DNA from: Thermanaeromonas toyohensis ToBE | Lineage (GTDB): Bacteria > Bacillota > DSM-521 > Neomoorellales > Neomoorellaceae | Direction of reading: 5' to 3' | DNA length: 64,000 bases | Assembly (NCBI RefSeq): GCF_900176005.1 | Contig: NZ_LT838272.1 | Span: 887,587 to 951,586 of the forward strand | In this document: positions 40,391-58,963 of the stretch, one piece after another | Position numbering within the stretch: position 1 is the first letter of the stretch | Layout of the letters: every line of letters begins with the position of its first letter | The notes under the pieces: generated by a model | What the model saw: only the letters and a program-made list of their open reading frames with translations | Database searches by the model: none | What the model was told of the DNA's origin: nothing | Program-made: the position numbers and the translations under genes

Positions 40391-40444
40391 TGGATTTAAG
40401 TCTTCCTCCTACAAATACGTTTTTATCCTTCGGGGTGTCAGAAT

Positions 40445-41140
40445 TTACATTATAGAAAGGTTCTTTAGTGCCCTAGCCAAGACCCTTGCCGGTGCCCCAC
40501 CGGCTTGAGCTAACTTGATAGGTAAGCAAATTAATTCAAATATAGTTTCTGGTATTTGCTCCATATGGGCCACGTTTTCTAAGATACAGATGTTCTCACG
40601 TAGAAGGACTTGGTGTACAGGTGCTGGGGCTGCGCCGCCTTTAGCATCGGGTGGAAAATCTAATCCCACCAAGGCTACTTTCTGCTCTACTAACCATGTG
40701 GCTGCTTCTATAGAAAGATAAGGATTGTTTTGGTAGTATTCTAGAGAACCATATTTTTTCCCCCATCCACTGTGTAGTAGCACCCTTAGGCTAGATATAT
40801 TGGGGGAACCAATAGAAGCTAAAGCTTCTATAAGATCGTCACGGCTAAACCCGTAGTTGGGTTGGCAGCGCTTTTGTAAGTCAAGCAGGATAGCCAATCC
40901 ACAGAATTTATCTAAGGGCTCCTGATCTATGGTAAAGCCTTGGGGGAAGAAATGATAAGGCGCATCAATATGGGTGCCTACATGAATACTCATAGACAAA
41001 TAAGCATTTGACCGTCCATGTTGGGTATGAGTATGAATAGGAACCAGTTTAGTTGGCGGATGGCCAGGTAGATTACCATATCCTTCTGCTATGGGGTGGG
41101 AAAGATCTACACGCCAAGTTTTAGTTGAGGAATCCAACAA
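40445..41140 (-). CDS. Cyclase / kynurenine-formamidase-like hydrolase
   Basis: A 231-residue member of the cyclase family (PF04199). The metal-binding signature HVGTHIDAPYHFFPQG lies at ~53, with WRVDLSHPIAEGYGNLPGHP at the start and a C-terminal GGAPARVLARAL. Metal-dependent members hydrolyse N-formylkynurenine, isatin or cyclic amides. The start is TTG behind AAAGGGTGA. It lies 3 bp after the ferredoxin gene, within the same transcript. Confidence 0.83.
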   Translation of the reverse strand: MLDSSTKTWRVDLSHPIAEGYGNLPGHPPTKLVPIHTHTQHGRSNAYLSMSIHVGTHIDAPYHFFPQGFTIDQEPLDKFCGLAILLDLQKRCQPNYGFSRDDLIEALASIGSPNISSLRVLLHSGWGKKYGSLEYYQNNPYLSIEAATWLVEQKVALVGLDFPPDAKGGAAPAPVHQVLLRENICILENVAHMEQIPETIFELICLPIKLAQAGGAPARVLARALKNLSIM

Positions 41141-41143
41141 AGT

Positions 41144-41383
41144 TCACCCTTTCTTTATACCCCATTTACCGTATACATTACCTGGTTCATAAGCCCGGTC
41201 TGGTAGGACATAAATGGCATCACTAGGGCACTGTAATTCACAGAGATAGCAACACTGGCAGTCTTCCTGGTATTTTATTTCCGGTAGTCCATTAGGACCC
41301 TCCCTTAGAACATCCAGGGGACAAATTTCTATACAGCGTAAGCAGCCTGTACAGTGTTGTAGAGTTATATTAGTTATAGTCAC
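41144..41383 (-). CDS. Two-[4Fe-4S] ferredoxin, partner of the flavoprotein
   Basis: A 79-residue ferredoxin with two cysteine groups, CTGCLRCIEICP and CQCCYLCELQCP. Its GTG start overlaps the flavoprotein stop (GTGA), so the two are made together. The pair resembles the AprBA arrangement (iron-sulfur subunit beside a fumarate-reductase-like flavoprotein), although the order here is flavoprotein first. It would carry electrons to or from the flavin. Confidence 0.85.
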   Translation of the reverse strand: MTITNITLQHCTGCLRCIEICPLDVLREGPNGLPEIKYQEDCQCCYLCELQCPSDAIYVLPDRAYEPGNVYGKWGIKKG

Positions 41384-43002
41384 CGATACCCCTCCTCTGG
41401 CTTTCCCAGTTTAGTCACTACTAAGCTATCTCCGCTTTTCCCTACCCCCAATACACTTTCTAACTCAGGATTTGCTTCAGGATAATCTTCGCGATAAAAA
41501 TCTCCTCGAGTTTCCTTTCGATGTAAAGCGCTGAGGAGGATGGCCTCAGCTACAGTTAATGTACTTAAAGTTTCATACCAGATCATTAATTCGTGGGGAT
41601 CCCGAGCAGCACTTTCTATTAGTTTTTGTTGTGATTCCTTGATCTGTTTGAGGGCCGTAAGGATCCTTTCCTCACTTCGAATTAAACTTATATCCACTCG
41701 GCTCATTAGTTGACTCGTTTTGATTAAAAGGTCACGCGCTATAAACTGTTTTTCCTTATGCCTTAGAGGGGTGAAAATGGTATTCTGCTCTTCTTCGAGA
41801 GAAGGCTCTTCGCTAATTCTTAGAGGAGGAGTTTCTTTAGCATATCGGGCAGCGTTTTTTCCGGCCAAAAATCCAGTATAAAGAGCCCAAGCTAGGCTGA
41901 TGCCAGAAAGTCCGATACACCCTCCTACTACTAATCCTTTAGCTGCTGTATCACCGGCTGCAAAGAGGCCCGGTACAGTACTCATGCCTTTTCGGTCGAT
42001 CCAGATACCGGCTGCCGCCGCATTGGACGTGCCAGTAAAGGCCGGCCATACTTCATGCTTTATGCCATAAAAATCGATACCGCTTCTGGCTATTAGGCGA
42101 GCCAGGTTAGGCATCAATTTTTCTATCAGTTCTCGCTCTCTGAAACCTGTAAGATCCATATAGATCGGTCCACGGCCAGCTTTAACTTCTTCTACCAAAG
42201 CTTTAACAATAGTGTTTCCACTAGCACCTTTTAAAGGAAGCTCTTGCCCTAAGCTGTTTAAGTATTTACCGCCATGGGCCATAAATTTTGATTGTCCATA
42301 GGTATTGAAGGCGGCCAGAGAAACATTATAATGATTTCCGTATTCCATGTAAGCCAGTTTAGCACCGGCCTCTAGGCCCAAACGTAGCCCTTCGCCAGCT
42401 ACTACATTTTGACCAAAGAAGGGTCCTCGAAAGCTACAGCCACCGGTAGCCAGGATAATAGCTTTAGCTTGTATAGCTATAAAATCACCTGTACGCACAT
42501 GGAAGCCTATTAGTCCATTAGGTTGACCACCAGAAAATATAATTTTGGTTACTGCTACTCGATCGAGGAAAGTGACCCCTAATTTTAGACATAACTCCCG
42601 GCTAAATTCTTGAAATTTATACATTGGAGCCAAAACACATTTTACTAAAGGGCCTCGTCCCGAACGCCGAAGGAATTTTCCATTTTCCTTTTCAAAAGGG
42701 AAGCCTTGGCGGTCAAGCTCCAGAATCAAGCGGTAATTGGTATCTAATAAAGAGGCCAACCATTCCCGGGAGTTTAAGCCAGCTCCAACCTGGAAATAGG
42801 CTTCTATCCATTCTTCTAAAGGTTCTTCTCCTGGTAGCCAGCACAAAATATCCCCGGCCGCGAATGCAGAAGGTCCACTGGTAGCTGCTCTAGCTTTGTC
42901 AAGTACAACCACTTTAGCTTTTTCTAAGGCGGCAAAGCGAGCGGCCATTAAGCCTGCAAGGCCCCCACCAATTACGGCTACATCGGTGCTTAGAAGCTTC
43001 AG
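41380..43002 (-). CDS. FAD-dependent fumarate-reductase/succinate-dehydrogenase-like flavoprotein
   Basis: About 540 residues. The first ATG (42948) lies after the dinucleotide-binding motif. Extending upstream gives in-frame VAVIGGGLAGLMAARFAALEK, needed for FAD binding, so the real start must be earlier. The only candidate is CTG at 43002, behind AAAGGGGGAT and overlapping the preceding stop (CTGA). Further motifs are AIILATGGCSF, GEGLRLGLEAGAKLAYME and GLFAAGDTAAKGLVVGGC near the C-terminal third. Relatives are the L-aspartate oxidase, AprA and tricarballylate dehydrogenase types. It probably oxidises or reduces a C-C bond next to a carboxylate. Confidence 0.82.
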   Translation of the reverse strand: MKLLSTDVAVIGGGLAGLMAARFAALEKAKVVVLDKARAATSGPSAFAAGDILCWLPGEEPLEEWIEAYFQVGAGLNSREWLASLLDTNYRLILELDRQGFPFEKENGKFLRRSGRGPLVKCVLAPMYKFQEFSRELCLKLGVTFLDRVAVTKIIFSGGQPNGLIGFHVRTGDFIAIQAKAIILATGGCSFRGPFFGQNVVAGEGLRLGLEAGAKLAYMEYGNHYNVSLAAFNTYGQSKFMAHGGKYLNSLGQELPLKGASGNTIVKALVEEVKAGRGPIYMDLTGFRERELIEKLMPNLARLIARSGIDFYGIKHEVWPAFTGTSNAAAAGIWIDRKGMSTVPGLFAAGDTAAKGLVVGGCIGLSGISLAWALYTGFLAGKNAARYAKETPPLRISEEPSLEEEQNTIFTPLRHKEKQFIARDLLIKTSQLMSRVDISLIRSEERILTALKQIKESQQKLIESAARDPHELMIWYETLSTLTVAEAILLSALHRKETRGDFYREDYPEANPELESVLGVGKSGDSLVVTKLGKPEEGYR

Positions 43003-43517
43003 ACGTTTATCCCCCTTTCCTGGGTGAGGAGTTTTGTTGTATAAGGTATGATACCACCTTCGGCAAGGATGGCCAGCATAACAGAAGGTAGGGGAGCAAA
43101 GGAGATATATCTACCTGTGGTGAGATTTATAACTATTCCTTGGTGGAGATCGATCTCGAGCCAATCTCCTTCAGTTACCATTGAGCTAATTCCTTTAACT
43201 GGTATGGCCGCCATACCGATGTTAAAGGCGTTACGGAAGAAAATACGAGCTATGGATTCGGCTAGTACAGCAGCTATGCCTGCATATTTTAAGGCTTTAG
43301 CTGCATGTTCACGGCTAGAGCCGGTGCCAAAATTGTGGCCAGCTACAATGAGATCACCCGGCTGGACTAGGCTGGCAAAGCCTGGCCTTATAGATTCCAT
43401 AGCATGTTGGGCCAGTTCGTGAGGGTCGGTCAGGGTGAGGTACTGGCCTGGAAGGATCTGTCCAGTGTCCACGTTATCGCCAAATTTCCATACCTTACCT
43501 CTGAAGATTGGAACCAT
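42999..43517 (-). CDS. Aconitase-family hydratase, small subunit (LeuD/DmdB-like)
   Basis: A ~172-residue LeuD-like subunit. It has VWKFGDNVDTGQILPGQYL near the start, where DmdB has [13 protein letters not shown]; the T-D to T-G change is unusual. It also has GHNFGTGSSREHAAKAL and ESIARIFFRNAFNIGM. The ATG at 43517 with GGGAGGAT upstream was preferred to a TTG at 43544. Its stop overlaps the flavoprotein start. It pairs with the large subunit upstream. Confidence 0.85.
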   Translation of the reverse strand: MVPIFRGKVWKFGDNVDTGQILPGQYLTLTDPHELAQHAMESIRPGFASLVQPGDLIVAGHNFGTGSSREHAAKALKYAGIAAVLAESIARIFFRNAFNIGMAAIPVKGISSMVTEGDWLEIDLHQGIVINLTTGRYISFAPLPSVMLAILAEGGIIPYTTKLLTQERGINV

Positions 43518-43578
43518 TCTTTTATATTTATCCTCCCATCTCAATTTTTTACTTAAAGCCCTCTTTAAGCCCTCTTTA

Positions 43579-44844
43579 TCAAAGATAACTTCGGGGATCT
43601 ACGATCTTTCCTACCAGAGCAGAAGCAGCCACGGTGGCCGTATTAGCCAGGTAGATTTTTCCTTCAGGGCTCCCCAGCCGGGCGATAAAGTTACGGCTAC
43701 CAGTCGTGATACATGTTTCGCCTGGAGCCAAGGCCCCCATGCCGTAAGCGCCACAAGGACCGCAACAAGGGTAGGAAACGATAGCCCCGGCTTCTATAAA
43801 GATATCAAGTAAACCTTCCTTGGAAGCTTTAAGCCAGAGGGAGCGGGTAGCTGGGACTACTAAAAGCCGTACCCCAGGAGCAATCTTTTTACCTTTAAGA
43901 ATATAGGCGGCAACATTTAAGTCTTCGTATCGACCTCCTGTACAGGTACCGATAACAGCCTGATCCACCTTTATATTTTCCTTTTCTATTTCCTGAGCTG
44001 GGCGCACATTGTCAGGGGAATGGGGTTCGGCTATCAGGGGTTCAAGGGTATTTAAGTGTATTTTTATAGTACAAGTATAACAGGCACCGGGATCGCTCTT
44101 TATTACGGAAAATTTTTTAGCCGTCCTGTTTCTTAGGTAGTCTAGGGTTATTTCATCTGGTTCAAAGATAGCGTTTTTGGCCCCCATTTCTAGAGCCATA
44201 TTACATAAGGTTAACCGGCTATCTAAGCTTAAATTCTTTACGCCCTTTCCTCGAAATTCCAAGGCTTTATAGTCTAGACCACCAGCTTTTACTGTTTTTA
44301 GCAAATATAGAGCCACATCTTTCCCGTAAACCCCTGGCGGGAGTTCTCCTTCTAATTGTATTTCTACACTTTCAGGAACCCTAAACCATAGCTTACCCCG
44401 TGCGAATATGCTGGCCATTTCACTGGAGCCCACTCCGGTAGCAAAGGCACCTAAAGCCCCGGCGGTTATAGTATGGGAATCTGTAGCTACCAAAACCATC
44501 CCCGGTACAATATGGCCGTTTTCTACTAGTAAATCGTGACATATACCTTCACCTATGTCGTAGAAGTATTTTATTTCCTGGCTGCGAGCGAAATCACGGA
44601 GGGCTCGGTGGTTTTTAGCTGCTTGGGGGGTCTGGGAGGGAGTGCGATGGTCCAACACTATAACGATCTTCTCTGGATCCCATACTTTTTTTACTGGCAA
44701 CCGAGCAAATTCAAGCAAGGTTAGGGGTCCTTGGTGATCATGGATCATCACCAGATCTACCTGTGCTTCAATTATTTGACCTGGACTCACTTTTTCTTGC
44801 CCAGCAGCGCGGGCCAGGATCTTTTCTGTAATCGTTTGTTCCAT
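43579..44844 (-). CDS. Aconitase-family hydratase, large subunit (LeuC/DmdA-like)
   Basis: A 421-residue large subunit, paralogous to DmdA at 9959. Shared features are [40 protein letters not shown] and a cluster site CCGPCGAYGMG. The first cluster-cysteine motif reads GTCTGGRYEDL instead of the usual SCTN(S/G)R, and the second CGPC is followed by GAYG instead of LGGH. These changes near the active site suggest a substrate other than isopropylmalate or dimethylmaleate. It catalyses hydration, dehydration or isomerisation of a branched di- or tricarboxylate. Confidence 0.85.
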   Translation of the reverse strand: MEQTITEKILARAAGQEKVSPGQIIEAQVDLVMIHDHQGPLTLLEFARLPVKKVWDPEKIVIVLDHRTPSQTPQAAKNHRALRDFARSQEIKYFYDIGEGICHDLLVENGHIVPGMVLVATDSHTITAGALGAFATGVGSSEMASIFARGKLWFRVPESVEIQLEGELPPGVYGKDVALYLLKTVKAGGLDYKALEFRGKGVKNLSLDSRLTLCNMALEMGAKNAIFEPDEITLDYLRNRTAKKFSVIKSDPGACYTCTIKIHLNTLEPLIAEPHSPDNVRPAQEIEKENIKVDQAVIGTCTGGRYEDLNVAAYILKGKKIAPGVRLLVVPATRSLWLKASKEGLLDIFIEAGAIVSYPCCGPCGAYGMGALAPGETCITTGSRNFIARLGSPEGKIYLANTATVAASALVGKIVDPRSYL

Positions 44845-44920: not shown

Positions 44921-46435
44921 CTAAGAATCTTCCGCTGACGGGTTTACCTTGGAAGTCCTTCGGCTCATTAAAAAAGGAGCGACCAAGGTGGCGACGATTA
45001 AAATTATCAAGATTACACTGATTGGTCGTGTAAAGTAATAGGCTGCTAGGGAGCCCTGGGATAAGATCAAGGATTGGCGGAAACCTTTTTCAGCCATAGG
45101 TCCTAGGATGAGGCCTAAAGCCATGGCTGCGGGGTGGAACCCATGTTTTCTCATGAGATAACCGAGAAGACCAAAGATAACCATAACCCATACATCATAC
45201 ATACTATTTCCTAGGGCGTAGGAGCCTACCACCGTTAGGGTGATAATGAGGGGAGCTAGTATTCCTGTGTTTAGGCTGGTCAGCTTGGCTATATATCGGG
45301 ATACAGCCATACCTATGACTGCCATCCAGAAATTAGCAAAAATGAATCCCAGAATAACTGTATAGGTGATTTCTCCGTATTTGGTGAATAACTCTCGGCC
45401 GGGTACTAGCCCATGCATAATCAAGGCCCCCAGCAGGATGGCAGCAGAGGTGCTTCCCGGGATACCCAATGTCAATAAAGGTATCATCGCTCCCCCACAT
45501 TCTGTGTTTTTGGCTACTTCGGCCGCCGCAATGCCATCGAGGGCTCCATGGCCGAACTTTTCCGGATGCTTAGAGATGCGCTTGGCCTCATGGTAGCTCA
45601 CCCAGGCAGCTACGTCGGCTCCTGCACCAGGTAAGATGCCTATCACTAACCCTATCCCTAGAGCTCTAAGGATGGCGTTTTTTACTTCTCTTAATTCGGC
45701 CAGGGTGGGGAAGAACTTCCACTTTTCTTCAATAGCAACTTCGGAGACTATGCGAGTAGACCCTTCTTCTACCATTAGCAGGACTTGCGAGAGGGCGAAG
45801 AGCCCGATAACGGCGGGGACAAAGGGGATCCCTGAATGTAAGGGGAAGAAGCCAAAGGTGAAGCGGGGATAACCGGAATCTAGATCCATCCCTACCGTAC
45901 CCAGAAGCAAACCCGCGGCTCCAGCAATAAGCCCTTTAACCAAGAGGGGCCCTGAAGCTATACTAGCTATAGTTATTAAACCGAATACGGCTATAAGAAA
46001 ATATTCCGGTGGCCCAAATTTTAAAGAAATAAGGGATAAAGGAGGCGAAATAAATAGAAGTAGGAAAGCTCCTACCAGTCCCCCGATGGCCGAACACCAG
46101 GTAGCTATACGTAAAGCTGTGGCTGCCTTTCCCTGTTTAGTCAGCTCAAATCCTTCTATAGCCGTTGCTGCTGAGGCGGTTGTACCAGGGGTATGAAAGA
46201 GGATAGCTGTTATACTTCCTCCATAGATAGCGGCAGCAAAGAGAGATACTAACATGATAAGGGCTGTATCGGGTTCTAAAGCATAGGTAAGGGGGAGGAG
46301 AAGGGCTAGACCCATGTTAGCTTGAAACCCAGGAAGGGCTCCCACCAACAGGCCGGCTAATATACCGAGTACCATAACTGATAGATTTTTTAGAGTGAGC
46401 ATTTTTAGTAGGACAGTCAGGAATAAGGAGGCCAA
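44921..46435 (-). CDS. tctA: Tripartite tricarboxylate transporter, large membrane subunit
   Basis: A 504-residue TctA-family protein with about 12 transmembrane helices. Diagnostic segments are GILAGLLVGALPGFQANMG near residue 22, FHTPGTTASAATAIEGF at ~80, GAGADVAAWVSYHEAKR at ~270 and LLTLGIPGSTSAAILLGAL at ~320. The start is TTG, with AAGGAGGG upstream. It is the third gene of a tctC-tctB-tctA set and imports a carboxylate, probably the pathway substrate, with sodium or protons. Confidence 0.9.
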   Translation of the reverse strand: MASLFLTVLLKMLTLKNLSVMVLGILAGLLVGALPGFQANMGLALLLPLTYALEPDTALIMLVSLFAAAIYGGSITAILFHTPGTTASAATAIEGFELTKQGKAATALRIATWCSAIGGLVGAFLLLFISPPLSLISLKFGPPEYFLIAVFGLITIASIASGPLLVKGLIAGAAGLLLGTVGMDLDSGYPRFTFGFFPLHSGIPFVPAVIGLFALSQVLLMVEEGSTRIVSEVAIEEKWKFFPTLAELREVKNAILRALGIGLVIGILPGAGADVAAWVSYHEAKRISKHPEKFGHGALDGIAAAEVAKNTECGGAMIPLLTLGIPGSTSAAILLGALIMHGLVPGRELFTKYGEITYTVILGFIFANFWMAVIGMAVSRYIAKLTSLNTGILAPLIITLTVVGSYALGNSMYDVWVMVIFGLLGYLMRKHGFHPAAMALGLILGPMAEKGFRQSLILSQGSLAAYYFTRPISVILIILIVATLVAPFLMSRRTSKVNPSAEDS

Positions 46436-46459
46436 GATGGTTTTCCCTCCTTGGAAGTC

Positions 46460-46885
46460 TTAGAATATTAATCCTTTAGGGAAGGGAACATGGAGTACCC
46501 TTACGAAAAGGAAGTAATAGAACGATATAATAACTGTTAAAGCGATAACATAACTAGATACATTACGGAGGCCGAGATAAAACATTACCCCTATTATGAA
46601 AGCAGTAGTAGTTATAAAAAAGCCTACGACTGTAATGCTTACAATATATAAGAGAGTTAAAACATAGATAATATAAGGTCGTATCCATCCCGGCTTTTTA
46701 CTCTGGGGTCTAAAAGGTTCGCGCTTTCTTAGATCCATGATAAGCATTATTACCGCTAAAAAGATAATGGCTCCTAGGGCGAATTGGGGAAACACATTTG
46801 CTCCTTCTGGAAACCCAAGACTTATCCGGTAAAGAGCTAGGCTAAGGGTAATAAGTACAAGAGCGATAATCCGGTCAGTACTCAT
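46460..46885 (-). CDS. tctB: Tripartite tricarboxylate transporter, small membrane subunit
   Basis: A ~141-residue TctB-family protein with four hydrophobic segments. GFPEGANVFPQFALGAIIF follows the first segment, as is usual for the family. The ATG at 46885 with AGGTGAT upstream is preferred over a GTG at 46897. It is separated from tctC by a strong hairpin. Confidence 0.83.
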   Translation of the reverse strand: MSTDRIIALVLITLSLALYRISLGFPEGANVFPQFALGAIIFLAVIMLIMDLRKREPFRPQSKKPGWIRPYIIYVLTLLYIVSITVVGFFITTTAFIIGVMFYLGLRNVSSYVIALTVIISFYYFLFVRVLHVPFPKGLIF

Positions 46886-46910
46886 ATTGGTTATCACCTA
46901 CTTTTTTAAC

Positions 46911-46937
46911 TCCCGGGGGCTACCTAAGAGCCCCCGG
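46911..46937 (-). promoter_or_regulatory. Intercistronic hairpin between tctC and tctB
   Basis: CCCGGGGGCT and AGCCCCCGGG form a perfect 10-bp GC-rich stem with a 7-base loop. In the minus-strand transcript it follows the binding-protein gene by 24 bases and precedes tctB. No T-run follows it in that direction. It is likely a processing or stabilising structure that keeps binding-protein mRNA more abundant than that of the membrane subunits. Confidence 0.8.
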
Positions 46938-46961
46938 GAAATTGATATATGCTTACGTATT

Positions 46962-47981
46962 TTACCAACCCATAAGCTCCTTAATCCTTTGCTCTTCTGC
47001 TTTAAGGAACTTTTTATAATCTTCCCCTTTGATGGGGTCCAAGGCCAAACCTAGTTCTTTAGCTTTGGCTATATGTTCGGGGTTTTTAGTAGCTTTATCT
47101 AGGGCCGATGTTAGTATATCTAAGATCTCTTTAGGTGTTCCTGCCGGCGCTGCGATACCACGGGATACTGACATTATTACATTTAACCCTTGTTCTTTAA
47201 AGGTAGGAACGTCAGGCAAGAATTCTGACCTTTTTTCAGCCATGACTCCCAGCACCCGCAGCTCGCCTTTCTTGTGCTGGTTAAAAACCTCGCTTACATT
47301 AGCCCCTAAGACCTGTACATGACCTCCTAATACCTGGGTAATGCTTATACTGGTACTATCATTGTGTACTACCTTAAATTTAGCTCCAGTAACCTTTTCT
47401 ACTTGGAGCAAGGCTAAGTGGTCATCACCACCTACTCCGTGGGCAGCGAAGCTGATCTTTTCTGGATTCTTTTTGGCATCATCGAGGAGTTCTTGCAGGG
47501 ATTTATATTTGCTGTCACCTTTAACAGCCCAGATGCACGGATCTGTTACATGATTCATGATCACGGCAAAGCTCTCTAGATTTTCCGGCCTTTTTACTTT
47601 AGGATCTAGATATCCTGGAAATATGTTGGGAACATTAATATAGCCTATAGTATAACCATCCGGTTTAGAATGGGCCAATTGGCTCCAGCCGTTCCATCCC
47701 CCACCACCAGTGACATTAATGACGTTGACAGGTTGTCCTAATTCTTTCTCCAAGTGGGCAGCCAAGAGACGGGCGGTAATGTCTGTACCCCCGCCAGCTC
47801 CGTAGGCTACAATCAAAGTAAGGGGTTTTTCAGGGAATTTAACTGTTGGCTTTTCTTCTTTAGCCCCCTGGCCAGTGGATGGAGATTGAGGTTTTCCACT
47901 ACAGCCAGCAAGTACTAAAGCTAAAAGGAATAACCCTATAAGTAGCAATACTATTCCTTTTTTATACCGAAAAACTTTCAT
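46962..47981 (-). CDS. tctC: Tripartite tricarboxylate transporter, binding lipoprotein
   Basis: A 339-residue TctC/Bug-family solute receptor. The signal peptide ends in the lipobox LVLAGC (cysteine ~27). The mature part has FPEKPLTLIVAYGAGGGTDITARLLA, the family ligand-binding start, and VNVTGGGGWNGWSQLA. The ligand is unknown; known members bind citrate, tricarballylate, glutamate, nicotinate and other carboxylates. Confidence 0.9.
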   Translation of the reverse strand: MKVFRYKKGIVLLLIGLFLLALVLAGCSGKPQSPSTGQGAKEEKPTVKFPEKPLTLIVAYGAGGGTDITARLLAAHLEKELGQPVNVINVTGGGGWNGWSQLAHSKPDGYTIGYINVPNIFPGYLDPKVKRPENLESFAVIMNHVTDPCIWAVKGDSKYKSLQELLDDAKKNPEKISFAAHGVGGDDHLALLQVEKVTGAKFKVVHNDSTSISITQVLGGHVQVLGANVSEVFNQHKKGELRVLGVMAEKRSEFLPDVPTFKEQGLNVIMSVSRGIAAPAGTPKEILDILTSALDKATKNPEHIAKAKELGLALDPIKGEDYKKFLKAEEQRIKELMGW

Positions 47982-48100: not shown

Positions 48101-49318
48101 TTAACCTTGCATTATTTCGTTATATAGCTTTATAAACTCTCCATCGTCTAAGCTCCGCTTAAGTTTAACTGCTTCTTCTTTTACCCGTTCTACCAACCTC
48201 TCAACTATTGAGGCATCTGGGACTTTTAAGCCAAGTTCCTCCAGCTTCCATTCAATGTTGGCCTTGCCACATTTCTTACCCAGTTCGATTTCGTGTTTCC
48301 GGCCAAAAATTTCCGGCTGGAAGGGCTCCACCGTGTGGGGATTGCGCCTTAAGGCCGCTACGGGGAGCCCCGCCTCCCAGGTGAAGAGGTTTCTTCCCAC
48401 CACAGGTTTGTTGGGCGGGAAGGACCAACGGGAAAGCTCTTGTACCTTTACAGCAGCTTCATAAAGCTTGGCAAAATCTAGGCCCGTCGGGATACCGTAG
48501 AGGGCTTCTACGCACCAGGCCACCTCTTCAAGGGCTGCGTTGCCTGCACGCTGGCCCAAGCCGTTTAATGTAGCAGCTATGCTGCTGGCCCCGGCTTCTA
48601 TCGCTGCCAGGGAGTTGGCTACCCCTAAACCAAAGTCATTGTGGCAATGGACTTCTATACTTGCATCTGTCCACTGGCGTACCTGGGTTGTTAAGTAAAA
48701 CATGCCCCGCGGGGTTATACAGCCCGCTGTATCTACCAGGGAGATCCGTTCTATAGCTGCTTCTTTAGTGGCTCTGGTAATCAAGCGTTCAAGAAAGGGG
48801 AGGTCAGCGCGCGTGGAGTCAATCATGAATAGATAAGGAACTAAGCCTTTTTCCCTGGCTAAGGTGGCCGCTGCCAAAAATTTATTAATTACTTCTTCTT
48901 CCTCCCAGCCGAACTGGTATTTTAGGCGGACATAGCTTACAGGGACTTCTAGTATGGCACCCCAGACTCCGGTAGCAGCAGCCACCTCGATGTCTTCGGC
49001 CCGCGCGCGACACAGGCAAGTGATTTTAGCTTTAAGACCAAGGGCTACTATTTGTTCCACCGCTTCCCGGTCGGCCTTAGAGACCATGGGAAACCCGGCT
49101 TCAATATACTGTATTCCGGCCGCATCTAACATCTTAGCGATTTCTGCTTTATCCTCCGGAGAGAAGACTATGCCTGGTGCCTGCTCTCCGTCTCGTAAGG
49201 TGGAGTCGTGGAAGGTTACTTGAGAAGGAAGCCTTAATCCTTCTCGAACTTCCGGTAAGAACTGGTAATGACTAACCCAGTAAGTATCTGTTTTCCAAGG
49301 ACCGTGCTCTAGGTTCAT
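48101..49318 (-). CDS. Homocitrate/isopropylmalate-synthase-like HMGL enzyme
   Basis: A 405-residue TIM-barrel protein of the DRE family. The N-terminal DSTLRDGEQAPGIVFSPEDK contains the metal-binding Arg-Asp. VHCHNDFGLGVANSLAAIEAG supplies the two metal histidines, and NGLGQRAGNAALEEV is typical of homocitrate and citramalate synthases. There is no C-terminal LeuA regulatory domain, so feedback control by leucine is unlikely. It would condense acetyl-CoA with a 2-oxoacid, or run the reverse cleavage. The ATG at 49318 has AAGAAGGTG upstream. The neighbouring aconitase-like pair could act on its product or precursor. Confidence 0.82.
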   Translation of the reverse strand: MNLEHGPWKTDTYWVSHYQFLPEVREGLRLPSQVTFHDSTLRDGEQAPGIVFSPEDKAEIAKMLDAAGIQYIEAGFPMVSKADREAVEQIVALGLKAKITCLCRARAEDIEVAAATGVWGAILEVPVSYVRLKYQFGWEEEEVINKFLAAATLAREKGLVPYLFMIDSTRADLPFLERLITRATKEAAIERISLVDTAGCITPRGMFYLTTQVRQWTDASIEVHCHNDFGLGVANSLAAIEAGASSIAATLNGLGQRAGNAALEEVAWCVEALYGIPTGLDFAKLYEAAVKVQELSRWSFPPNKPVVGRNLFTWEAGLPVAALRRNPHTVEPFQPEIFGRKHEIELGKKCGKANIEWKLEELGLKVPDASIVERLVERVKEEAVKLKRSLDDGEFIKLYNEIMQG

Positions 49319-49342
49319 AATCAGCACCTTCTTTTTTTAGTA

Positions 49343-50536
49343 TTAGAGCACACTCAAAGCTTTTTCGATGCGGTCGAAGGCCTGGTGGATCTGCTCGACA
49401 GGTGCCAAAAGTGAGATACGGACAAAGCCTTCGCCGGCTTCGCCGAAGGCGGTGCCGGGGAAGAGCAATACTTGCGCCTTCTCTAAAATAAAGCGGCAAA
49501 AATCAAAGGAGGTTAACCCGAATTTGCGGATGTCGGGGAAGATATAGAAGGCACCGCGAGGTACCACATACGGGATGCCCAATTGGTCAAGCCTTTGCAT
49601 GACGGCTAGGCGCCGCTCGTTATAAATACGAGCCGTCTCTATGACACAATCTTGAGGACCGGTTATAGCGGCTAGGGCTGCTTCCTGGGAGATGGAAGAG
49701 GTACAGATGGAAACAGCATATTTAAGCTGGATCATAGCTGCTATTACTTCCCGGGGCCCAGCTACATAACCCACCCGCCATCCTGTCATAGAATAAGCTT
49801 TGGAGAAGCCGTTAACTGTGAAGGTACGTTCCTTCATCCCTGGGAAGGATCCTATGCTCCAATGTTTAAAACCGTCATAAGTTAATTTTTCATATATCTC
49901 GTCAGAGATAACGATCAAATCATGGCGGATGGCTATCTCAGCCAATTCTTCCAACCTTTCTTTGGGCATTACGGCTCCGGTGGGGTTATTGGGGCTTATG
50001 ACCAGCAGAGCCCGGGTACGCGGAGTTATAAGCTTTTCTACCTCCCGGGGGATGATCTGGAACTCGTTTTCGGGTCGGGTGATCAGGGGCACCATTTTAC
50101 CGCCTGCTACTTGTATAGCTGTATCGTAAGGTGTGTACCGGGGCTCGGGAACGATAACTTCATCTCCGGGATTAATAAGGGAAAACATAAGTAAAAATAC
50201 AGCTTCCTGGCCACCAACGGTGACTAAAACCTCTGAAGGATCTACATCTAAGCCGTTCTCTTTCCGGAGCTTGGCCGCTATGGCCTCCCGTAGTTCGGGT
50301 ATACCGGCCCAATCCGTGTAGTGGGTTTTGCCTTCATCCATGGCCTTTTTGGCTGCAGCGATTATATGGGGGGGTGTAGAGAGGTCAGGATCCCCTCTTC
50401 CCAAGTTGATGAGATTAGGGATGCCCTTGGCCATAGAGATCATCTGGCTACGTTCAGTTACAGGTATATGCTGGAATCTTTCCGCTAGAAAGCGGGTAGC
50501 AGGTCCTAAGTTAGTATACAAGGGATTAACAGCCAT
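49343..50536 (-). CDS. PLP-dependent class I aminotransferase
   Basis: A 397-residue fold-type I aminotransferase. INLGRGDPDLSTPPHI opens the fold, ISPNNPTGAVMPKERL and VISDEIYEKLTYDG contain the cofactor-ring contacts, and FTVNGFSKAYSMTGWRVGY contains the Schiff-base lysine; FVRISLLAP holds the C-terminal arginine that binds the substrate carboxylate. The exact amino acid is not shown by sequence. In this cluster it could convert an amino-acid intermediate to a 2-oxoacid for the synthase-like enzyme 25 bp downstream. Confidence 0.85.
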   Translation of the reverse strand: MAVNPLYTNLGPATRFLAERFQHIPVTERSQMISMAKGIPNLINLGRGDPDLSTPPHIIAAAKKAMDEGKTHYTDWAGIPELREAIAAKLRKENGLDVDPSEVLVTVGGQEAVFLLMFSLINPGDEVIVPEPRYTPYDTAIQVAGGKMVPLITRPENEFQIIPREVEKLITPRTRALLVISPNNPTGAVMPKERLEELAEIAIRHDLIVISDEIYEKLTYDGFKHWSIGSFPGMKERTFTVNGFSKAYSMTGWRVGYVAGPREVIAAMIQLKYAVSICTSSISQEAALAAITGPQDCVIETARIYNERRLAVMQRLDQLGIPYVVPRGAFYIFPDIRKFGLTSFDFCRFILEKAQVLLFPGTAFGEAGEGFVRISLLAPVEQIHQAFDRIEKALSVL

Positions 50537-50572: not shown

Positions 50573-51439
50573 TTAAACCCTTTCGGGGAAGTCACACTTT
50601 TTAACCTCTACTGGTATTTGCTTTAATTGGCGAAGGAACTCGACCAGAATCCCGATCATACGGCTGTAGATCTTTTCACCCTTCTCACGGCTGGCTAGCA
50701 AAGGGTTACCCATGATCCCGCATTCGCTATATTCCCACTGATCGAAGGGAGCGCGCACAGGATAACCGTGGAAATAAAACTGGAAGCCGGAACCTGACTT
50801 TTTCTCGCTTCCTTCAGGCAACCATGGGGGGTTATAGGGAAGGCTTAATTTAGCTCTCTCCAAGTGTACTAGCTCAGGGCAGAATAAGAGGGCACCCGAG
50901 GTCTCAATCTCACCTCCATGCCAGCCGGGCAACTGATCCTTACCTTCAATCAGATCCTGGCATAATTCAGCAAAAACTTCAGTATCGGCGGCATAATTTA
51001 TAGCCAGGGCCCCTGTATCGTATCTGATAGCGCGCACCACCTTGTCCAAGGTAGGGGCATTGGAGGTATGCCCAGTTACATAGACGATCTTTTTGAACCC
51101 ATGGTAGATTAGACTGCGGCCGATGTCATACATTAGGTTAAAAAGGGTTTCATCCCGCAGGGTTATGGTACCGGGTTCGTGGGGGCGCATATGAAAGGGG
51201 CTATAGCCTACAGGGATTAAGGGTGCTACCGGGACTTCGGCCTGTTTAGCCGCTTCCAGGCAAACATAATAAGCAGCATAAGAATCGATCCCTGTTGGCA
51301 GATGCGGCCCATGTTGTTCAGTGCTGCCGATGGGCACCAAAACGACATCTGTTTTTTCTAACCATTCTTTGACTTCTACCCAGGTTAGATCAAACAAGCG
51401 ATACCTTCTGTTTTCTAGGTTTTTGTCTTCTGTATTCAT
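50573..51439 (-). CDS. Creatininase-family amidohydrolase
   Basis: A 288-residue member of the creatininase family. The metal-binding motif PIGSTEQHGPHLPTGID lies at ~36-52 (Glu, His, Asp), YVTGHTSNAP at ~120 replaces the usual GHGGN, and WHGGEIETSGALLF lies at ~175. The family hydrolyses cyclic or linear amides (creatinine, formamido-pyrimidines, mycofactocin precursor). It is the first gene after the sigma-54 promoter. Its ribosome site GAGGAGGC is strong. It probably opens or deacylates the pathway's starting compound. Confidence 0.85.
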   Translation of the reverse strand: MNTEDKNLENRRYRLFDLTWVEVKEWLEKTDVVLVPIGSTEQHGPHLPTGIDSYAAYYVCLEAAKQAEVPVAPLIPVGYSPFHMRPHEPGTITLRDETLFNLMYDIGRSLIYHGFKKIVYVTGHTSNAPTLDKVVRAIRYDTGALAINYAADTEVFAELCQDLIEGKDQLPGWHGGEIETSGALLFCPELVHLERAKLSLPYNPPWLPEGSEKKSGSGFQFYFHGYPVRAPFDQWEYSECGIMGNPLLASREKGEKIYSRMIGILVEFLRQLKQIPVEVKKCDFPERV

Positions 51440-51495
51440 GGCTGTGCCTCCTCAACGCTTTAATGTAGCTGTTGCCTGCCTTAATTAAATAAATA

Positions 51496-51510
51496 GCAAA
51501 TATTATGCCA
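51496..51510 (-). promoter_or_regulatory. Sigma-54 (-24/-12) promoter of the minus-strand catabolic cluster
   Basis: On the minus strand the sequence TGGCATAATATTTGC has GG and GC elements with exactly 10 bases between them, as in the consensus TGGCAC-N5-TTGC. It lies 57 bp upstream of the creatininase start and directly opposite a sigma-54 activator gene. Confidence 0.85.
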
Positions 51511-51566
51511 AGGCTTTTTATCCTTAGCATATAAGGGTGTGTATCTACTAGATAGTTAAATTTAGG

Positions 51567-51634
51567 TGGATTTCCTCCAATAAAGGCAGGAATTAAACTA
51601 TTTTTGCCGAATATTTTGGACAAATTTCCTCCAA
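51567..51634. promoter_or_regulatory. Paired activator sites upstream of the sigma-54 promoter
   Basis: The 11-mer ATTTCCTCCAA occurs at 51570-51580 and 51624-51634, 54 bp apart. Each is part of a dyad: TGGA-TTTCC-TCCA (51567-51579) and TTGGA...TCCAA (51616-51634). Both lie 57-125 bp upstream of the -24 element, where enhancer-binding proteins bind. The distal copy also overlaps the regulator's own leader. Confidence 0.65.
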
Positions 51635-51652
51635 ATTATGGGGGGTAGAAAA

Positions 51653-53752
51653 ATGGGTAAACCTAGGACTGTGGTATTAGTAGCGAAGGGTGAACGTAAT
51701 AGGCAAGTTTTGGGTGCTCAGTTAAACGATTTATTACGGGGCAGGGTAGAAGTACGCTCATTATGTGTTGATGTTAATTTTTCTCCTTCTCTTCTAGAAG
51801 GGGATCTTATTGTAGTGGCCTCTGAACCCATAAGACGGGACTTGGCTCCTTATTTTACAGGCCGTTCTAATGTTATTGTGGCTCGTCGTACTATAGATTT
51901 ACGGAACCTCCACTTGCTTTTGAAATTGCCACCTTATACTAAAATTATGCTGGTCAACGACCGTAGAGAAACGGCGGAAGAAGCCATCTCTCTCCTATAT
52001 AGCATGGGGTTTACCGATTATTGGTTTATCCCAGTTTATCCCGGGCTAGAAAATGTTCCCCAAGTAGATATAGCTGTAACCCCGGGGGAGCCACAGTTGG
52101 TCCCTTCAGGCGTTAAACAGGTTGTCGATTTAGGTTGCCGTATAATTGATGTTACTACCCTTATAGAAATTCTCTTGCGCCTTGATTTGCTTGACGAGAA
52201 AGCCCACCTTCTATCTGCTCGGTACCTTAATTACATAATAGAGATAAGTAAAAAGCTTGTTCAGAGTTTAAAGGATAACCAGGAGTTAAACTTGCTTCTG
52301 ACCACTATTCTAGACAAAGTTCATGATGGTGTTATGGCTATTGATGGGAGCGGCAAAACCTTCGTTTATAACCGGGCGGCGGAAAGATTCTTCCGGTACC
52401 CTGCCAAGCAGGTTTTAGGTCGTCGGCTCCAGGATATAATTCCCCAGATTTCTCCTGAAAAGCCTTTAAGAGAATTAAAATCCGAAGAAAATGTGGCTGA
52501 AGTGTACGCGGGTCGCCGTCTTTTAGTTAACCGCACCCTCCTAAAAGGCGAGGATAATCAACCTCAAGGAGTGATCATTACTTTTAATGAACTAGATACT
52601 CTAGAAAAAATAGAACGCCGTTTAAAAGCCTATCCTGGAGCTACTGGCTACGTGGCTAAGTATACTTTTGAAGACCTTCGAGGGGAGGACCCTGTATTTT
52701 TAGAATGTCTGGAAAAGGCCAAGCATTTTGCGAGTACCGATCTCCCTGTCCTGATTTTAGGGGCTACGGGGACGGGTAAAGAGCTTTTAGCCCATGCCAT
52801 TCATAATGCATCACCTCGCCACAGCAAGCCTTTTATAGCTGTAAATTGCGCCGCTCTGCCTAAAGATCTACTAGAGAGCGAGCTTTTCGGTTATGAGGAG
52901 GGGGCCTTTACCGGAGCTCGCCGGGGTGGTCGGGCTGGATTGTTTGAGCAGGCTAAGGGCGGTAGTATTTTTTTAGACGAGATAGGGGATTTACCCTTTA
53001 ACTTGCAGGCCAAACTCCTGCGAGTGTTAGAACAAAAAGAAGTCATGCGTCTGGGTGCTGAACGCGTTATACCTATAGATGTTAGAATAATTGCTGCCAC
53101 CAGTAAAGATCTTAAAGAAGCGGTAGACCATGGTGAGTTTCGCCTCGACCTCTATTATCGCTTAAACGCCTTTACAGTAAGACTTCCTTCCCTTAAGGAA
53201 CGACGAGGGGATATCCCCATACTTCTCTCTTATTTTCTCCAAAAACACGGCAGAGAATTTCATAATTTTTTTACCTCCGAAGCCTTACAGGCTTTGATGC
53301 ACTATCCCTGGCCAGGTAATATACGTGAATTACGGAATACCATCGAGTATTTAGTAACTATCTCCTGCGGACGTCAAGTGAAGGTAGAAGATCTTCCCTT
53401 GGAGATTCGGGAATACTATCGAACTTTTACTCCTCCCCAGGAGGGCGATGTTAAGGGTGGGAAAGCTACTAAGTTCGATTTTTTAGCTGAAGTTTGGCAG
53501 TTATATCCCCAAATTAAGATTGATATAGCTCTTCTAGAAATATTAGCTGGATCTCCCGAGAAACCGTTAGGGCGTCAAGCCTTAGTAGCCGCGCTAAAAA
53601 ATCAAGGTTGGGAAATCAGTGAAGATATTGTGCGTACCCGGCTTAAAGAATTAGCGAGCCAAAAACTAGTGATTATTGGGAAGACACGTCAAGGTACCAG
53701 GATCACTTGGAAAGGGAAGAGATGGCTGAGCCAGTTTCGGGAATTAGGGTAA
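51653..53752 (+). CDS. Sigma-54 activator with atypical sensor and winged-helix-like C-terminus
   Basis: A 699-residue enhancer-binding protein. Residues ~1-200 form a sensor region that I do not confidently assign to a family. A PAS domain follows (~225-310, LDKVHDGVMAIDGSGKTFVY). The AAA+ domain (~345-585) has Walker A GATGTGKELL and the GAFTGA loop that contacts sigma-54. The usual Fis helix-turn-helix is missing. Instead the last ~75 residues read like a winged helix (LGRQALVAALKNQGWEISED, then RTRLKELASQKLVIIGK, TRITWKGKRWL). The ATG at 51653 has GGGGGG 8 bp upstream. It is divergent from, and probably activates, the minus-strand cluster. Confidence 0.82.
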   Translation: MGKPRTVVLVAKGERNRQVLGAQLNDLLRGRVEVRSLCVDVNFSPSLLEGDLIVVASEPIRRDLAPYFTGRSNVIVARRTIDLRNLHLLLKLPPYTKIMLVNDRRETAEEAISLLYSMGFTDYWFIPVYPGLENVPQVDIAVTPGEPQLVPSGVKQVVDLGCRIIDVTTLIEILLRLDLLDEKAHLLSARYLNYIIEISKKLVQSLKDNQELNLLLTTILDKVHDGVMAIDGSGKTFVYNRAAERFFRYPAKQVLGRRLQDIIPQISPEKPLRELKSEENVAEVYAGRRLLVNRTLLKGEDNQPQGVIITFNELDTLEKIERRLKAYPGATGYVAKYTFEDLRGEDPVFLECLEKAKHFASTDLPVLILGATGTGKELLAHAIHNASPRHSKPFIAVNCAALPKDLLESELFGYEEGAFTGARRGGRAGLFEQAKGGSIFLDEIGDLPFNLQAKLLRVLEQKEVMRLGAERVIPIDVRIIAATSKDLKEAVDHGEFRLDLYYRLNAFTVRLPSLKERRGDIPILLSYFLQKHGREFHNFFTSEALQALMHYPWPGNIRELRNTIEYLVTISCGRQVKVEDLPLEIREYYRTFTPPQEGDVKGGKATKFDFLAEVWQLYPQIKIDIALLEILAGSPEKPLGRQALVAALKNQGWEISEDIVRTRLKELASQKLVIIGKTRQGTRITWKGKRWLSQFRELG

Positions 53753-55815: not shown

Positions 55816-56862
55816 ATGTTTCGCTATCTTATGGGAAGGAGAATTATATGGAGAATAGCGATCATAATTACTATAAGTACAGTAGGAATTTTTCTTCTTT
55901 CTGCGTGTAGTAAAACGGGAGGTCCTGGAGCTTCCCAGAGTTCGCAGGAAGCTCCTAAGAGCGCCCAAGAAGAAAAATATCCTACTAGACCCATTGAATT
56001 TATTGTACCCTGGGGGCCTGGTGGTGGGGCTGATCAACTTGCTCGTAAATCTGCGACCTTGCTAGAGAAAATTTTAAGAGTACCCCTTCCTGTAGTAAAT
56101 GTTCCTGGAGCCACCGGGGGTACAGGTATGTCTAAGTTACTGGCGGCACCGGCTGACGGATATAGTATGGCTATTTACATAGGGGATAGCCATGCGGTTC
56201 TTGGTACGGGAGCGGCTTCCTGGAAAATGGAGGATATCGTAGCAGTAGCCCGTATGATAAAGGCGCCTTCCTTCCTCTTCGTTAGATATGATGATAATCG
56301 GTTTAAGACTTGGGCGGATTTCGAAAAGGAAGCCAAAGCGAAGCCAGGGCAGTTGAAAGTAGCTACCTTAGGGAAAGGAAGTTTAGATCATCTAACCTTA
56401 GCTTATTTAGCCAGTAAAGGGATTCAGGTTACCGATGTTCCTTATGCTAATCCGGGTGAGCGCTATACTGCCTTACTGGGCGGGCATGTGGATGCCCTTT
56501 ACGAGCAAGCAGGAGATGTCCGCCAATATATTACGGGAAACCAGATAAGACCCATAATTATTTTCAATGAAGAACGCTATCCGGCCTTTAAAGATGTACC
56601 CTGTTCGAAAGAGCTTGGCTATGATATATATCTACCTCAATTTCGAGCCATAGTAGTTAAAGCAGGAACCGCCAAGGAAAAAGTGAAAAAGCTTAGCGAG
56701 GCTTTTAAACAAGTATATAACGATCCCGAATACCAGAAGTTTTTGGAAGAGCAATATGGTACCAAAGATAGCTTTATGGATGCAGATACAGCTACAGCCT
56801 TTTTAAAGTCCGAACTGGATACTTATGTTAAACTTATGACACAATTTGGGCTGCGTAAATAA
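55816..56862 (+). CDS. tctC: Tripartite tricarboxylate transporter, binding lipoprotein (second set)
   Basis: A 348-residue TctC/Bug-family receptor. The lipobox FLLSAC follows a hydrophobic segment, with the cysteine at ~31. YPTRPIEFIVPWGPGGGADQLARKSA and VPGATGGTGMSKLLAAPADGY are the ligand-site segments. It heads a tctC-tctB-tctA set separate from that at 44.9-48 kb. The ligand is unknown. An enzyme for a phosphonocarboxylate is encoded right after tctA. Confidence 0.9.
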   Translation: MFRYLMGRRIIWRIAIIITISTVGIFLLSACSKTGGPGASQSSQEAPKSAQEEKYPTRPIEFIVPWGPGGGADQLARKSATLLEKILRVPLPVVNVPGATGGTGMSKLLAAPADGYSMAIYIGDSHAVLGTGAASWKMEDIVAVARMIKAPSFLFVRYDDNRFKTWADFEKEAKAKPGQLKVATLGKGSLDHLTLAYLASKGIQVTDVPYANPGERYTALLGGHVDALYEQAGDVRQYITGNQIRPIIIFNEERYPAFKDVPCSKELGYDIYLPQFRAIVVKAGTAKEKVKKLSEAFKQVYNDPEYQKFLEEQYGTKDSFMDADTATAFLKSELDTYVKLMTQFGLRK

Positions 56863-56880
56863 AAGGGGAGAAAAGATAAA

Positions 56881-57402
56881 ATGCAAAAAAGAAGTATAGG
56901 TCGAATAATCTTCGATGGGCTCTTGTTCTTAATGAGCCTTTACTTTTACCTCTTATCCGGAAAATTTACTTATGTCGCTACCCCAGGCCAATTGGGGCCA
57001 GATTTTTGGCCTAAATTAATTTTAATACTTTTGATGCTGTTGGCAGTTTATGACATTATAATAGGAATTTACTTTAAAGGAGGAGAGGGAATAGAAAGTA
57101 GCAGCGAAGAAAAAGCTGCTAACAAGTATCCTTTGTTGTTAGCAATAGGAAGTATTTTGACCATAGGCTACGTATACCTGGTCTCTTTTTTGGGATTCCC
57201 CCTCACTACTTTCTTATATTTGATAGCTTTTATGTATATTGGGCGCTATAGAAAGATGAGGGTTATTGTGGCAAGTAGTTTTGTTACTGTTATCGTGTTG
57301 GTATTAATTTTTGTCAAATTTGTATATGTATCCCTTCCATTGGGAGAAGGAGTCTTTGCTGATCTGACTATTCTGCTTTATAGATTGCTAGGTATCTACT
57401 GA
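56881..57402 (+). CDS. tctB: Tripartite tricarboxylate transporter, small membrane subunit (second set)
   Basis: A 173-residue TctB-type protein with four hydrophobic segments. The first is followed by VATPGQLGPDFWPKLILILLML, the usual family motif. A long central loop (GGEGIESSSEEKAANKYP) separates helices 2 and 3. GGGGAGAAAAG lies upstream of the start, 18 bp after tctC. Confidence 0.83.
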   Translation: MQKRSIGRIIFDGLLFLMSLYFYLLSGKFTYVATPGQLGPDFWPKLILILLMLLAVYDIIIGIYFKGGEGIESSSEEKAANKYPLLLAIGSILTIGYVYLVSFLGFPLTTFLYLIAFMYIGRYRKMRVIVASSFVTVIVLVLIFVKFVYVSLPLGEGVFADLTILLYRLLGIY

Positions 57403-57442
57403 GCTTTTTAAATAAGCAGTAGAGAGGGGGATAAATAACAAA

Positions 57443-58963
57443 ATGGAGATATTGGTTCACTTATTTGAAGGGTTTATTCATGCTCTACACCCTATAAATC
57501 TTTTTCTTTTGATAATAGGGCTTATAGCGGGACTCATCGCTGGGATATTACCAGGACTAACTTTAGTTATGGGAGTAATTTTGCTTTTACCTTTTACTTA
57601 TCCTATGGAAGCGACTCAAGCTATAATCCTTTTAACCGCAGTTTATGTAGCAGGTACCTATGGAGGGGCTTTCACTTCTATACTCTTTCGTATACCAGGA
57701 GAACCTATTCATGTCCCCTTACTTTGGGATGGATACCCCATGACACGACGGGGAGAAGCTGCCAAAGCCTTGGGGTGGACCCTTTTTGCTGCCGGTGGCG
57801 GCGGATTAGTTGCTGCTATAATTATGACTTTTGTTTCGGAACCCTTTGCTAAAGTAGCTCTCAGTTTCTCCACTCCAGAATATTTTGCTATAGTTTTTCT
57901 AGGTTTGACCAGCGTTGTAGCTTTAGGGAGAGGTTCTATGAGCCAAGCCATTATGTCTTTGCTTTTAGGACTACTTATAGCAACGGTAGGGGTGGATGAC
58001 ATTTATGGAGCAGAACGGTTTACTTTTGGGTCGTCTCTCCTCCGTAATGGGATAGACTACCTCACAGTAATGGTAGGTACCTATGCGGTGGCGGAGATTT
58101 TTACCCGCCTAGAAGAGGGGTTTTCTACTGCTGTTGTTCAACGTTTAGAACGGATAAAAACTGCCCTTCCTACCCTATCGGAAATCCGTGGAATTATGGG
58201 GGTACTTTTACGGAGCATAGGGTTAGGTACACTTATAGGTGCTGTACCTGGGGCAGGGGCTACGGTGGCTTCCTTTGTATCTTATGGGGTAGAAAAGCAA
58301 TATGGCCGCAGACGTGACAAGATGGGGCAGGGAGTACCCGAGGGCATTGTAGCTTCTCAGGCGGCTGCTACAGCTTCAGTCGGGGGAGCCCTTATACCTT
58401 TGTTAACTTTGGGTATTCCAGGGAGCGGGGCTACGGCTGTAATTCTAGGTGCTTTTTTGCTCCATGGGATCCAGCCAGGCCCCGAAGTGTTCCGGGCTTC
58501 CCTTGATTTAGTTTACACTATTTTTGCCTCCCTCTATTTAGGGATTATCTTGATGTGTATAATGGGATGGCTAGGAGTAAAGCCCCTTGTTAAAACATTA
58601 GACGCTCCTGAAGCTGTTAGCTCAGCTATAATCATGGTCTTATGCTTTATCGGCGCCTTTACTATCCGCAATAATATTACAGATGTGTGGATGATGGTGC
58701 TTTTTGGTATATTGGGCTACTTTATGGAGCGCTTCGGTTTTCCTATCGCGCCCCTCGTATTAGGGAGTATTTTGGGCCCTCTGGCTGAACGTGCTTTTAT
58801 GACAACTATGTTAAGTTATCATAATGATTTTTTGATTTTCTTTAAGCGCCCAGTGAGCGGTGTATTTATGGTATTGGCTATCATTTCTTTGTTTATGCCC
58901 TTGCTGATCTCCTTATGGCAAAGACAAAAGGCGAATAAAAATTTAATTAAGGCAGGGGGATAG
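57443..58963 (+). CDS. tctA: Tripartite tricarboxylate transporter, large membrane subunit (second set)
   Basis: A 506-residue TctA protein with about 12 helices. Landmarks are GLIAGLIAGILPGLTLVMG at ~25, the FRIPGEPIHVPLLWDGYPM loop at ~85, GAVPGAGATVASFVSYGVEK at ~270 and LLTLGIPGSGATAVILGAF at ~320. The 85-100 loop lacks the serine/threonine-rich TTASAATAIEG of the first set, which suggests a different substrate. The stop is 10 bp from the hydrolase gene. Confidence 0.9.
   Translation: MEILVHLFEGFIHALHPINLFLLIIGLIAGLIAGILPGLTLVMGVILLLPFTYPMEATQAIILLTAVYVAGTYGGAFTSILFRIPGEPIHVPLLWDGYPMTRRGEAAKALGWTLFAAGGGGLVAAIIMTFVSEPFAKVALSFSTPEYFAIVFLGLTSVVALGRGSMSQAIMSLLLGLLIATVGVDDIYGAERFTFGSSLLRNGIDYLTVMVGTYAVAEIFTRLEEGFSTAVVQRLERIKTALPTLSEIRGIMGVLLRSIGLGTLIGAVPGAGATVASFVSYGVEKQYGRRRDKMGQGVPEGIVASQAAATASVGGALIPLLTLGIPGSGATAVILGAFLLHGIQPGPEVFRASLDLVYTIFASLYLGIILMCIMGWLGVKPLVKTLDAPEAVSSAIIMVLCFIGAFTIRNNITDVWMMVLFGILGYFMERFGFPIAPLVLGSILGPLAERAFMTTMLSYHNDFLIFFKRPVSGVFMVLAIISLFMPLLISLWQRQKANKNLIKAGG

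Follow-up and report, generated by a model that had tools for sequence, protein, structure and literature searches.

A predicted sigma-54 control region with repeated candidate activator sites beside a winged-helix enhancer-binding protein in Thermanaeromonas toyohensis

Which activator controls the creatininase operon of Thermanaeromonas toyohensis ToBE, and where would it bind? The window analyzed here is a 64,000-nucleotide stretch of contig NZ_LT838272.1 (positions 887,587 to 951,586, forward strand), and its features are collected in Table 1. The promoter TGGCATAATATTTGCT reads toward the creatininase gene, the first of a predicted operon that goes on with aminotransferase, HMGL, TctABC, and aconitase-type genes. 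Its GG is at 51509/51508 and its GC at 51497/51496, which gives the GG-N10-GC spacing with TGGCA / TTGCW that defines sigma-54 promoters, and it scores 19.1 where the maximum is 20.7. The pattern TGGCAN6TTGCW has 32 matches in the 3.33-Mb genome compared to 8 for the reversed control, and about a dozen of the 32 adjoin genes for enhancer-binding proteins (EBPs); the pattern is therefore strongly enriched for true promoters. Sigma-54 itself is encoded in the genome (rpoN; DNA-binding domain match, E=5.6e-59). The same promoter position is found before the same gene in the nearest ortholog locus, L192 of genome G017 (TGGCACGATACTTGCA). The promoter call is sound, and the transcription start of the operon is predicted near 51484. 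The original prediction of a sigma-54 promoter with exact GG-GC spacing stands, and the sigma-A promoter that it named as the alternative was not found in 51400-51700. A near-perfect 10-bp inverted repeat, TATGCTAAGG / CCTTGGCATA with an 8-nt loop, is located at 51504-51531 and overlaps the minus-strand -24 element. It could be a repressor site; conservation in L192 was not seen by eye.

Table 1. Coordinates of the features of the locus, as positions in the window
Feature	Position	Strand	Basis
Aconitase/isopropylmalate-dehydratase-type large and small subunits	42999..44844	minus	
Tripartite tricarboxylate transporter TctC, TctB, TctA	44921..47981	minus	
HMGL-like enzyme (isopropylmalate/homocitrate synthase type)	48101..49327	minus	
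Class I/II aminotransferase, second gene of the predicted operon	49343..50536	minus	
Creatininase family (PF02633), first target gene	50573..51439	minus	Pfam; identity to creatininases beside family EBPs
Sigma-54 -24/-12 promoter TGGCATAATATTTGCT	51510->51495	minus	Near-consensus match, read from sequence
Intergenic stretch conserved with G017/L192	51549..51656		Local alignment score
Proximal candidate activator site TTGGAGGAAATCCACC (promoter orientation)	51565..51580	minus	Repeat and ortholog alignment; starts 70 bp upstream of TGGCA
Distal candidate activator site TTGGAGGAAATTTGTCCA	51617..51634	minus	Direct repeat; starts about 125 bp upstream of TGGCA
Sigma-54 activator (EBP)	51653..53752	plus	Domain matches and models; divergent to operon
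HTH_12 winged-helix DNA-binding domain of the EBP	53528..53722	plus	Pfam PF08461, E=6e-6

The divergent gene encodes a bacterial EBP, as its AAA+ domain (Sigma54_activat, E=7e-69) and GAFTGA motif indicate. Its architecture, read from domain matches and models, consists of an N-terminal domain (residues 1-211), a PAS domain (218-275), the AAA+ domain with GAFTGA (344-509), and a C-terminal winged helix (626-690). The C terminus matches HTH_12, the Ribonuclease R winged-helix family, above the gathering score. The AlphaFold2 model of the last 90 residues (mean pLDDT 94.4) contains helices and a two-stranded wing, and Foldseek places it nearest to the DNA-binding domains of PadR and CggR, so the winged-helix fold is well modeled. 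The N-terminal domain is also predicted to fold confidently (pLDDT 93.5); it has no Pfam match and weakly resembles periplasmic-binding-like folds by Foldseek. Its assignment as PrpR_N (PF06506), a family matched by three EBPs of the same genome, was rejected on the missing Pfam match and a weak Foldseek match only (2q5c, E=0.028). The Fis-type HTH_8 of type Ib EBPs is present in 16 of the 18 EBPs of the genome (16 of the 17 besides the window EBP). The window protein lacks it and carries HTH_12 instead, the only one of the 18 to do so; the second EBP without a Fis motif, judged by its C-terminal sequence, is at 1189621. Thus, the activator is of an unusual type and faces the promoter divergently, both as originally proposed. 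It is very probably the right activator for this promoter.

Related loci support the operon as the EBP's own target. The creatininases beside three other EBPs of the winged-helix family described below are 88% (partial; L192 in G017), 73% (L195 in G105), and 72% (L194 in G062) identical to that of the window. The family EBPs of G062 and G105 precede creatininase operons, and G105 repeats the series HMGL, creatininase, aminotransferase, and TctCBA. In L194 (G062:C4, 870-6361), the EBP is followed by Xsc (sulfoacetaldehyde acetyltransferase), a SauS-like acylating sulfoacetaldehyde dehydrogenase, HMGL, and creatininase, a gene set that hints that the creatininase operon may be tied to sulfonate metabolism. 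In the window, the minus-strand run goes on through 39527-42948 with proteins that read as FAD-dependent reductase-like, cyclase/hydrolase-like, and nitrilase-like, which suggests that the catabolic unit is longer and acts on a compound containing an amide. A second TctC-TctB-TctA-like set, again named from reading, lies on the plus strand at 55816-58963, downstream of the EBP and a LysR regulator.

Two candidate activator sites lie between the promoter and the EBP gene. The 11-mer ATTTCCTCCAA is present at 51570-51580 and at 51624-51634, 54 bp apart. When the intergenic region was shuffled with its dinucleotides preserved, 71 of 5000 shuffles (1.4%) contained a direct repeat 11 bp or longer, so the repeat is moderately unlikely to be a chance event. 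The dyad arms around the two copies are TGGA-N5-TCCA at the proximal site (51567-51579) and TGGA-N9-TCCA at the distal site (51617-51633). The combined pattern occurs twice in the intergenic region compared to a shuffle mean of 0.003, a contrast to be read with the pattern having been picked after the fact. The original prediction described two dyads with shared sequence 54 bp apart. The shared 11-mer and the spacing are confirmed, but the dyads differ, and a direct repeat of 11 bp whose dyad arms are unlike fits the two sites better than a single repeated dyad. The spacing corresponds to 5.14 helical turns, which by arithmetic only would put both sites on one side of the helix. It is plausible that TTGGAGGAAATCCACC and TTGGAGGAAATTTGTCCA are binding sites of the divergent EBP.

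The recognition rule TGGA-N5-TCCA proposed earlier fits the proximal site but not the distal one. In the genome search suggested with it, the rule was absent near the other 29 of the 30 -24/-12 promoters examined in the same genome, and it is ruled out as a regulon-wide motif. The half-site found for the EBP family is a different one, AAnGGGnTAA. The TTGGAGGAAAT repeat is likewise rejected as a genome-wide motif; it has 78 matches with at most one mismatch, not above the 147 of its reversed control, a count that is probably inflated because the reversed motif resembles ribosome-binding sites.

Conservation of the sites was assessed in one close ortholog, L192. Its EBP is 66% identical to that of the window, and it retains the divergent promoter layout; a small tautomerase-like gene (a reading of the sequence) separates the EBP from the promoters. 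Alignment of the window intergenic stretch to the sequence preceding the L192 EBP gives a local score of 47, compared to 23.5 ± 3.1 in 500 shuffles (maximum 37). L192 has exactly two copies of GGGTAAAA(A)TTCCC in its 18 kb. One copy, GGGTAAAATTCCCC, is beside the EBP within the aligned stretch and opposite the proximal window site. The other, GGGTAAAAATTCCCC, starts 70 bp upstream of the TGGCA of the creatininase promoter, exactly as TTGGAGGAAATCCACC does in the window. These two positional coincidences identify the proximal site as the best candidate operator. Ungapped promoter-anchored identity between the window and L192 is 27/90, not above shifted registers, which indicates that the site is conserved and not the whole spacer. 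We did not detect a counterpart of the distal site in L192. By these comparisons the proximal candidate is well supported; the distal one is a candidate through repetition only.

These data favor, with a probability of roughly 0.78, a control region for a locally regulated catabolic operon in which the EBP acts at the TTGGAGGAAAT repeats to drive the sigma-54 promoter. Sigma-54 RNA polymerase would occupy 51510-51495, unable alone to open the DNA. The EBP would sense a metabolite through its N-terminal domain, its PAS domain, or both, and its winged helix would bind the repeats, centered on approximate positions -88 and -142 relative to the predicted start. The bound EBP would then loop to the polymerase, and its AAA+ GAFTGA domain would drive opening. 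The distal copy lies just upstream of the ribosome-binding site of the EBP and possibly also limits EBP expression.

The main competitor keeps the sigma-54 promoter and the EBP but moves the operator to AAAGGCAGGAATTAAACTATTTTTGCC (51582-51608), leaving the TTGGAGGAAAT repeats incidental or bound by another protein. The ortholog alignment has its longest stretch of identity at AGGAATTAAA, which in L192 is embedded in the inverted repeat CCAGAAAAG/CTTTTCTGG; in the window, an inverted repeat at 51585-51608 overlaps the AAAGGCAGGAATTAAACTATTTTTGCC element. The actual promoter of L192, however, has GGGTAAAAATTCCCC and lacks the AAAGGCAGGAATTAAACTATTTTTGCC element, and the operators of the EBP family are of a GGG/CCC type closer to the TTGG..CC sites. 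We regard this placement of the operator as unlikely. The end of the distal copy, 18 bp short of the start codon of the EBP gene, would also suit chiefly autoregulatory or repressor sites, with the operon activated from solution or via weak sites. The position of the proximal copy relative to the operon promoter is nevertheless kept in the ortholog, and a chiefly autoregulatory role appears improbable. That an ordinary sigma-A promoter starts the operon and the -24/-12 match arose by chance is highly improbable: the 8 matches of the reversed pattern in the genome show that such matches can arise by chance, but the search of 51400-51700 gave no sigma-A-like site, and G017 conserves the sigma-54 site next to the same gene and the same EBP.

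The window EBP is one of a family of some 70 EBPs, mostly from Bacillota with a few members outside, and has both the shared N-terminal domain and the C-terminal winged helix. Of 399 genomes sampled from the phylum, 37 had a match to the N-terminal domain query, and a full-length alignment scan of named genomes found members in Brevibacillus, Clostridium, Sporomusa, Pontibacillus, Fusibacter, and others. After duplicates were removed, 73 members were analyzed. Their C termini align as one winged-helix domain (GR-x2-L/I ... SE-x2-R-x2-L-x2-L ... GR-x-G-x2-I-T). Among the 43 members scanned with Pfam, HTH_12 was matched in 22 and CggR_N in 13; neither HTH_8 nor PrpR_N is among the 25 families listed for them. 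In about 37 of the 73, a -24/-12 site is present, either 90-520 bp from the start of the EBP gene and divergent to it or at most about 310 bp after the stop codon; 37 regions were used in the statistics. Target genes include amidohydrolases, transporters, 2-oxoacid oxidoreductases, and aminotransferases. At one locus, L193 (G041:C1), the EBP stop codon is closely followed by a weaker -24/-12 site, TGGTATAGAAGTTGCA, which has CCCGTTATAACCCAA upstream of it and scores below the threshold.

An EM search of the regions upstream of the family sigma-54 promoters returned AAnGGGnTAA with a log-likelihood of 94, compared to 41-43 in shuffles. In five-fold cross-validation, a match was present in 64% of held-out regions (8.8 per kb), compared to 18% in shuffles (1.3 per kb) and 3.5% beside the sigma-54 promoters of non-family EBPs (0.4 per kb). 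Half-sites on the same strand have a spacing peak at 9-10 bp, and convergent GGG...CCC pairs are far commoner than divergent pairs. One member, L143, has a strong predicted operator, AAATGGGTTAATGGG...CGCCCGTTAACCCATTT. Where the EBP gene precedes its operon, the GGG...CCC dyads could be terminators of that gene, but several results speak against this: members with the divergent layout have them too, the same-strand recurrence at 9-10 bp counters it, and the dyads are absent beside non-family EBPs. The window sites do not score significantly with the family matrix and share with the family half-site only a general GG...AA...CC layout; the window match to the matrix, TATTGGAGGA, is of a strength for which about 3.6 are expected by chance. 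If the window sites are those of its EBP, its specificity would therefore have diverged. On balance, the data lean slightly toward a further architectural class of sigma-54 activators, mostly in Bacillota, with a periplasmic-binding-like N-terminal domain that has no Pfam match, followed by PAS and AAA+ domains and, at the C terminus, a winged helix that would read convergent AAnGGGnTAA arrays every 9-10 bp. The window EBP would represent a subclade shifted to TTGGAGGAAAT.

The window EBP fits none of the four architectures listed by Francke et al. (2011) (PMC3162934). It shares with their type Ib the one-component layout, the GAFTGA AAA+ domain, upstream sites, a -24/-12 promoter, and an adjacent target operon, but type Ib proteins end in Fis HTH_8 and the window EBP in a winged helix (HTH_12/CggR_N-like). 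LevR-type (type II) EBPs also place a non-Fis DNA-binding domain on a sigma-54 activator; theirs is N-terminal with PTS domains at the C terminus, whereas that of the window EBP is C-terminal and no PTS domain was found. DVU0151 is noted as one exception by Kazakov et al. (2015) (PMC4641369), with some orthologs matching the winged-helix superfamily SSF46785. Compared by description, DVU0151 and its Desulfovibrionales orthologs resemble the window EBP in lacking a Fis HTH, in an unknown N-terminal region, and in a divergent sigma-54 operon, but DVU0151 has GAFSEA in place of GAFTGA and was presented as a single exception, not a family. Zalpha-like winged helices that do not bind Z-DNA occur in bacterial proteins annotated as sigma-54-interacting regulators (2024, PMC11298590). 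A winged helix on an EBP therefore has precedent. In the portion of Nie et al. (2019) (PMC6615313) considered here, Clostridiales regulons were rebuilt from Fis-type and PRD-type EBPs with TGT-N10-12-ACA as the commonest operator. The sigma-54 consensus TTGGCATNNNNNTTGCT and adjacent catabolic operons are in common with the window; the window gene set and the GGG half-site are absent from that portion. We did not find a description of a winged-helix EBP family or an AAnGGGnTAA operator in the open-licence papers searched.

Because regulon reconstructions in the literature depend on the Fis-type domain, EBPs with a winged helix and the genes they control tend to end up with no motif. The N-terminal domain of the family, found in 37 of 399 genomes, comes with a cross-validated operator prediction that is open to direct footprinting. 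How a winged helix places the AAA+ hexamer at the enhancer is a testable mechanistic question.
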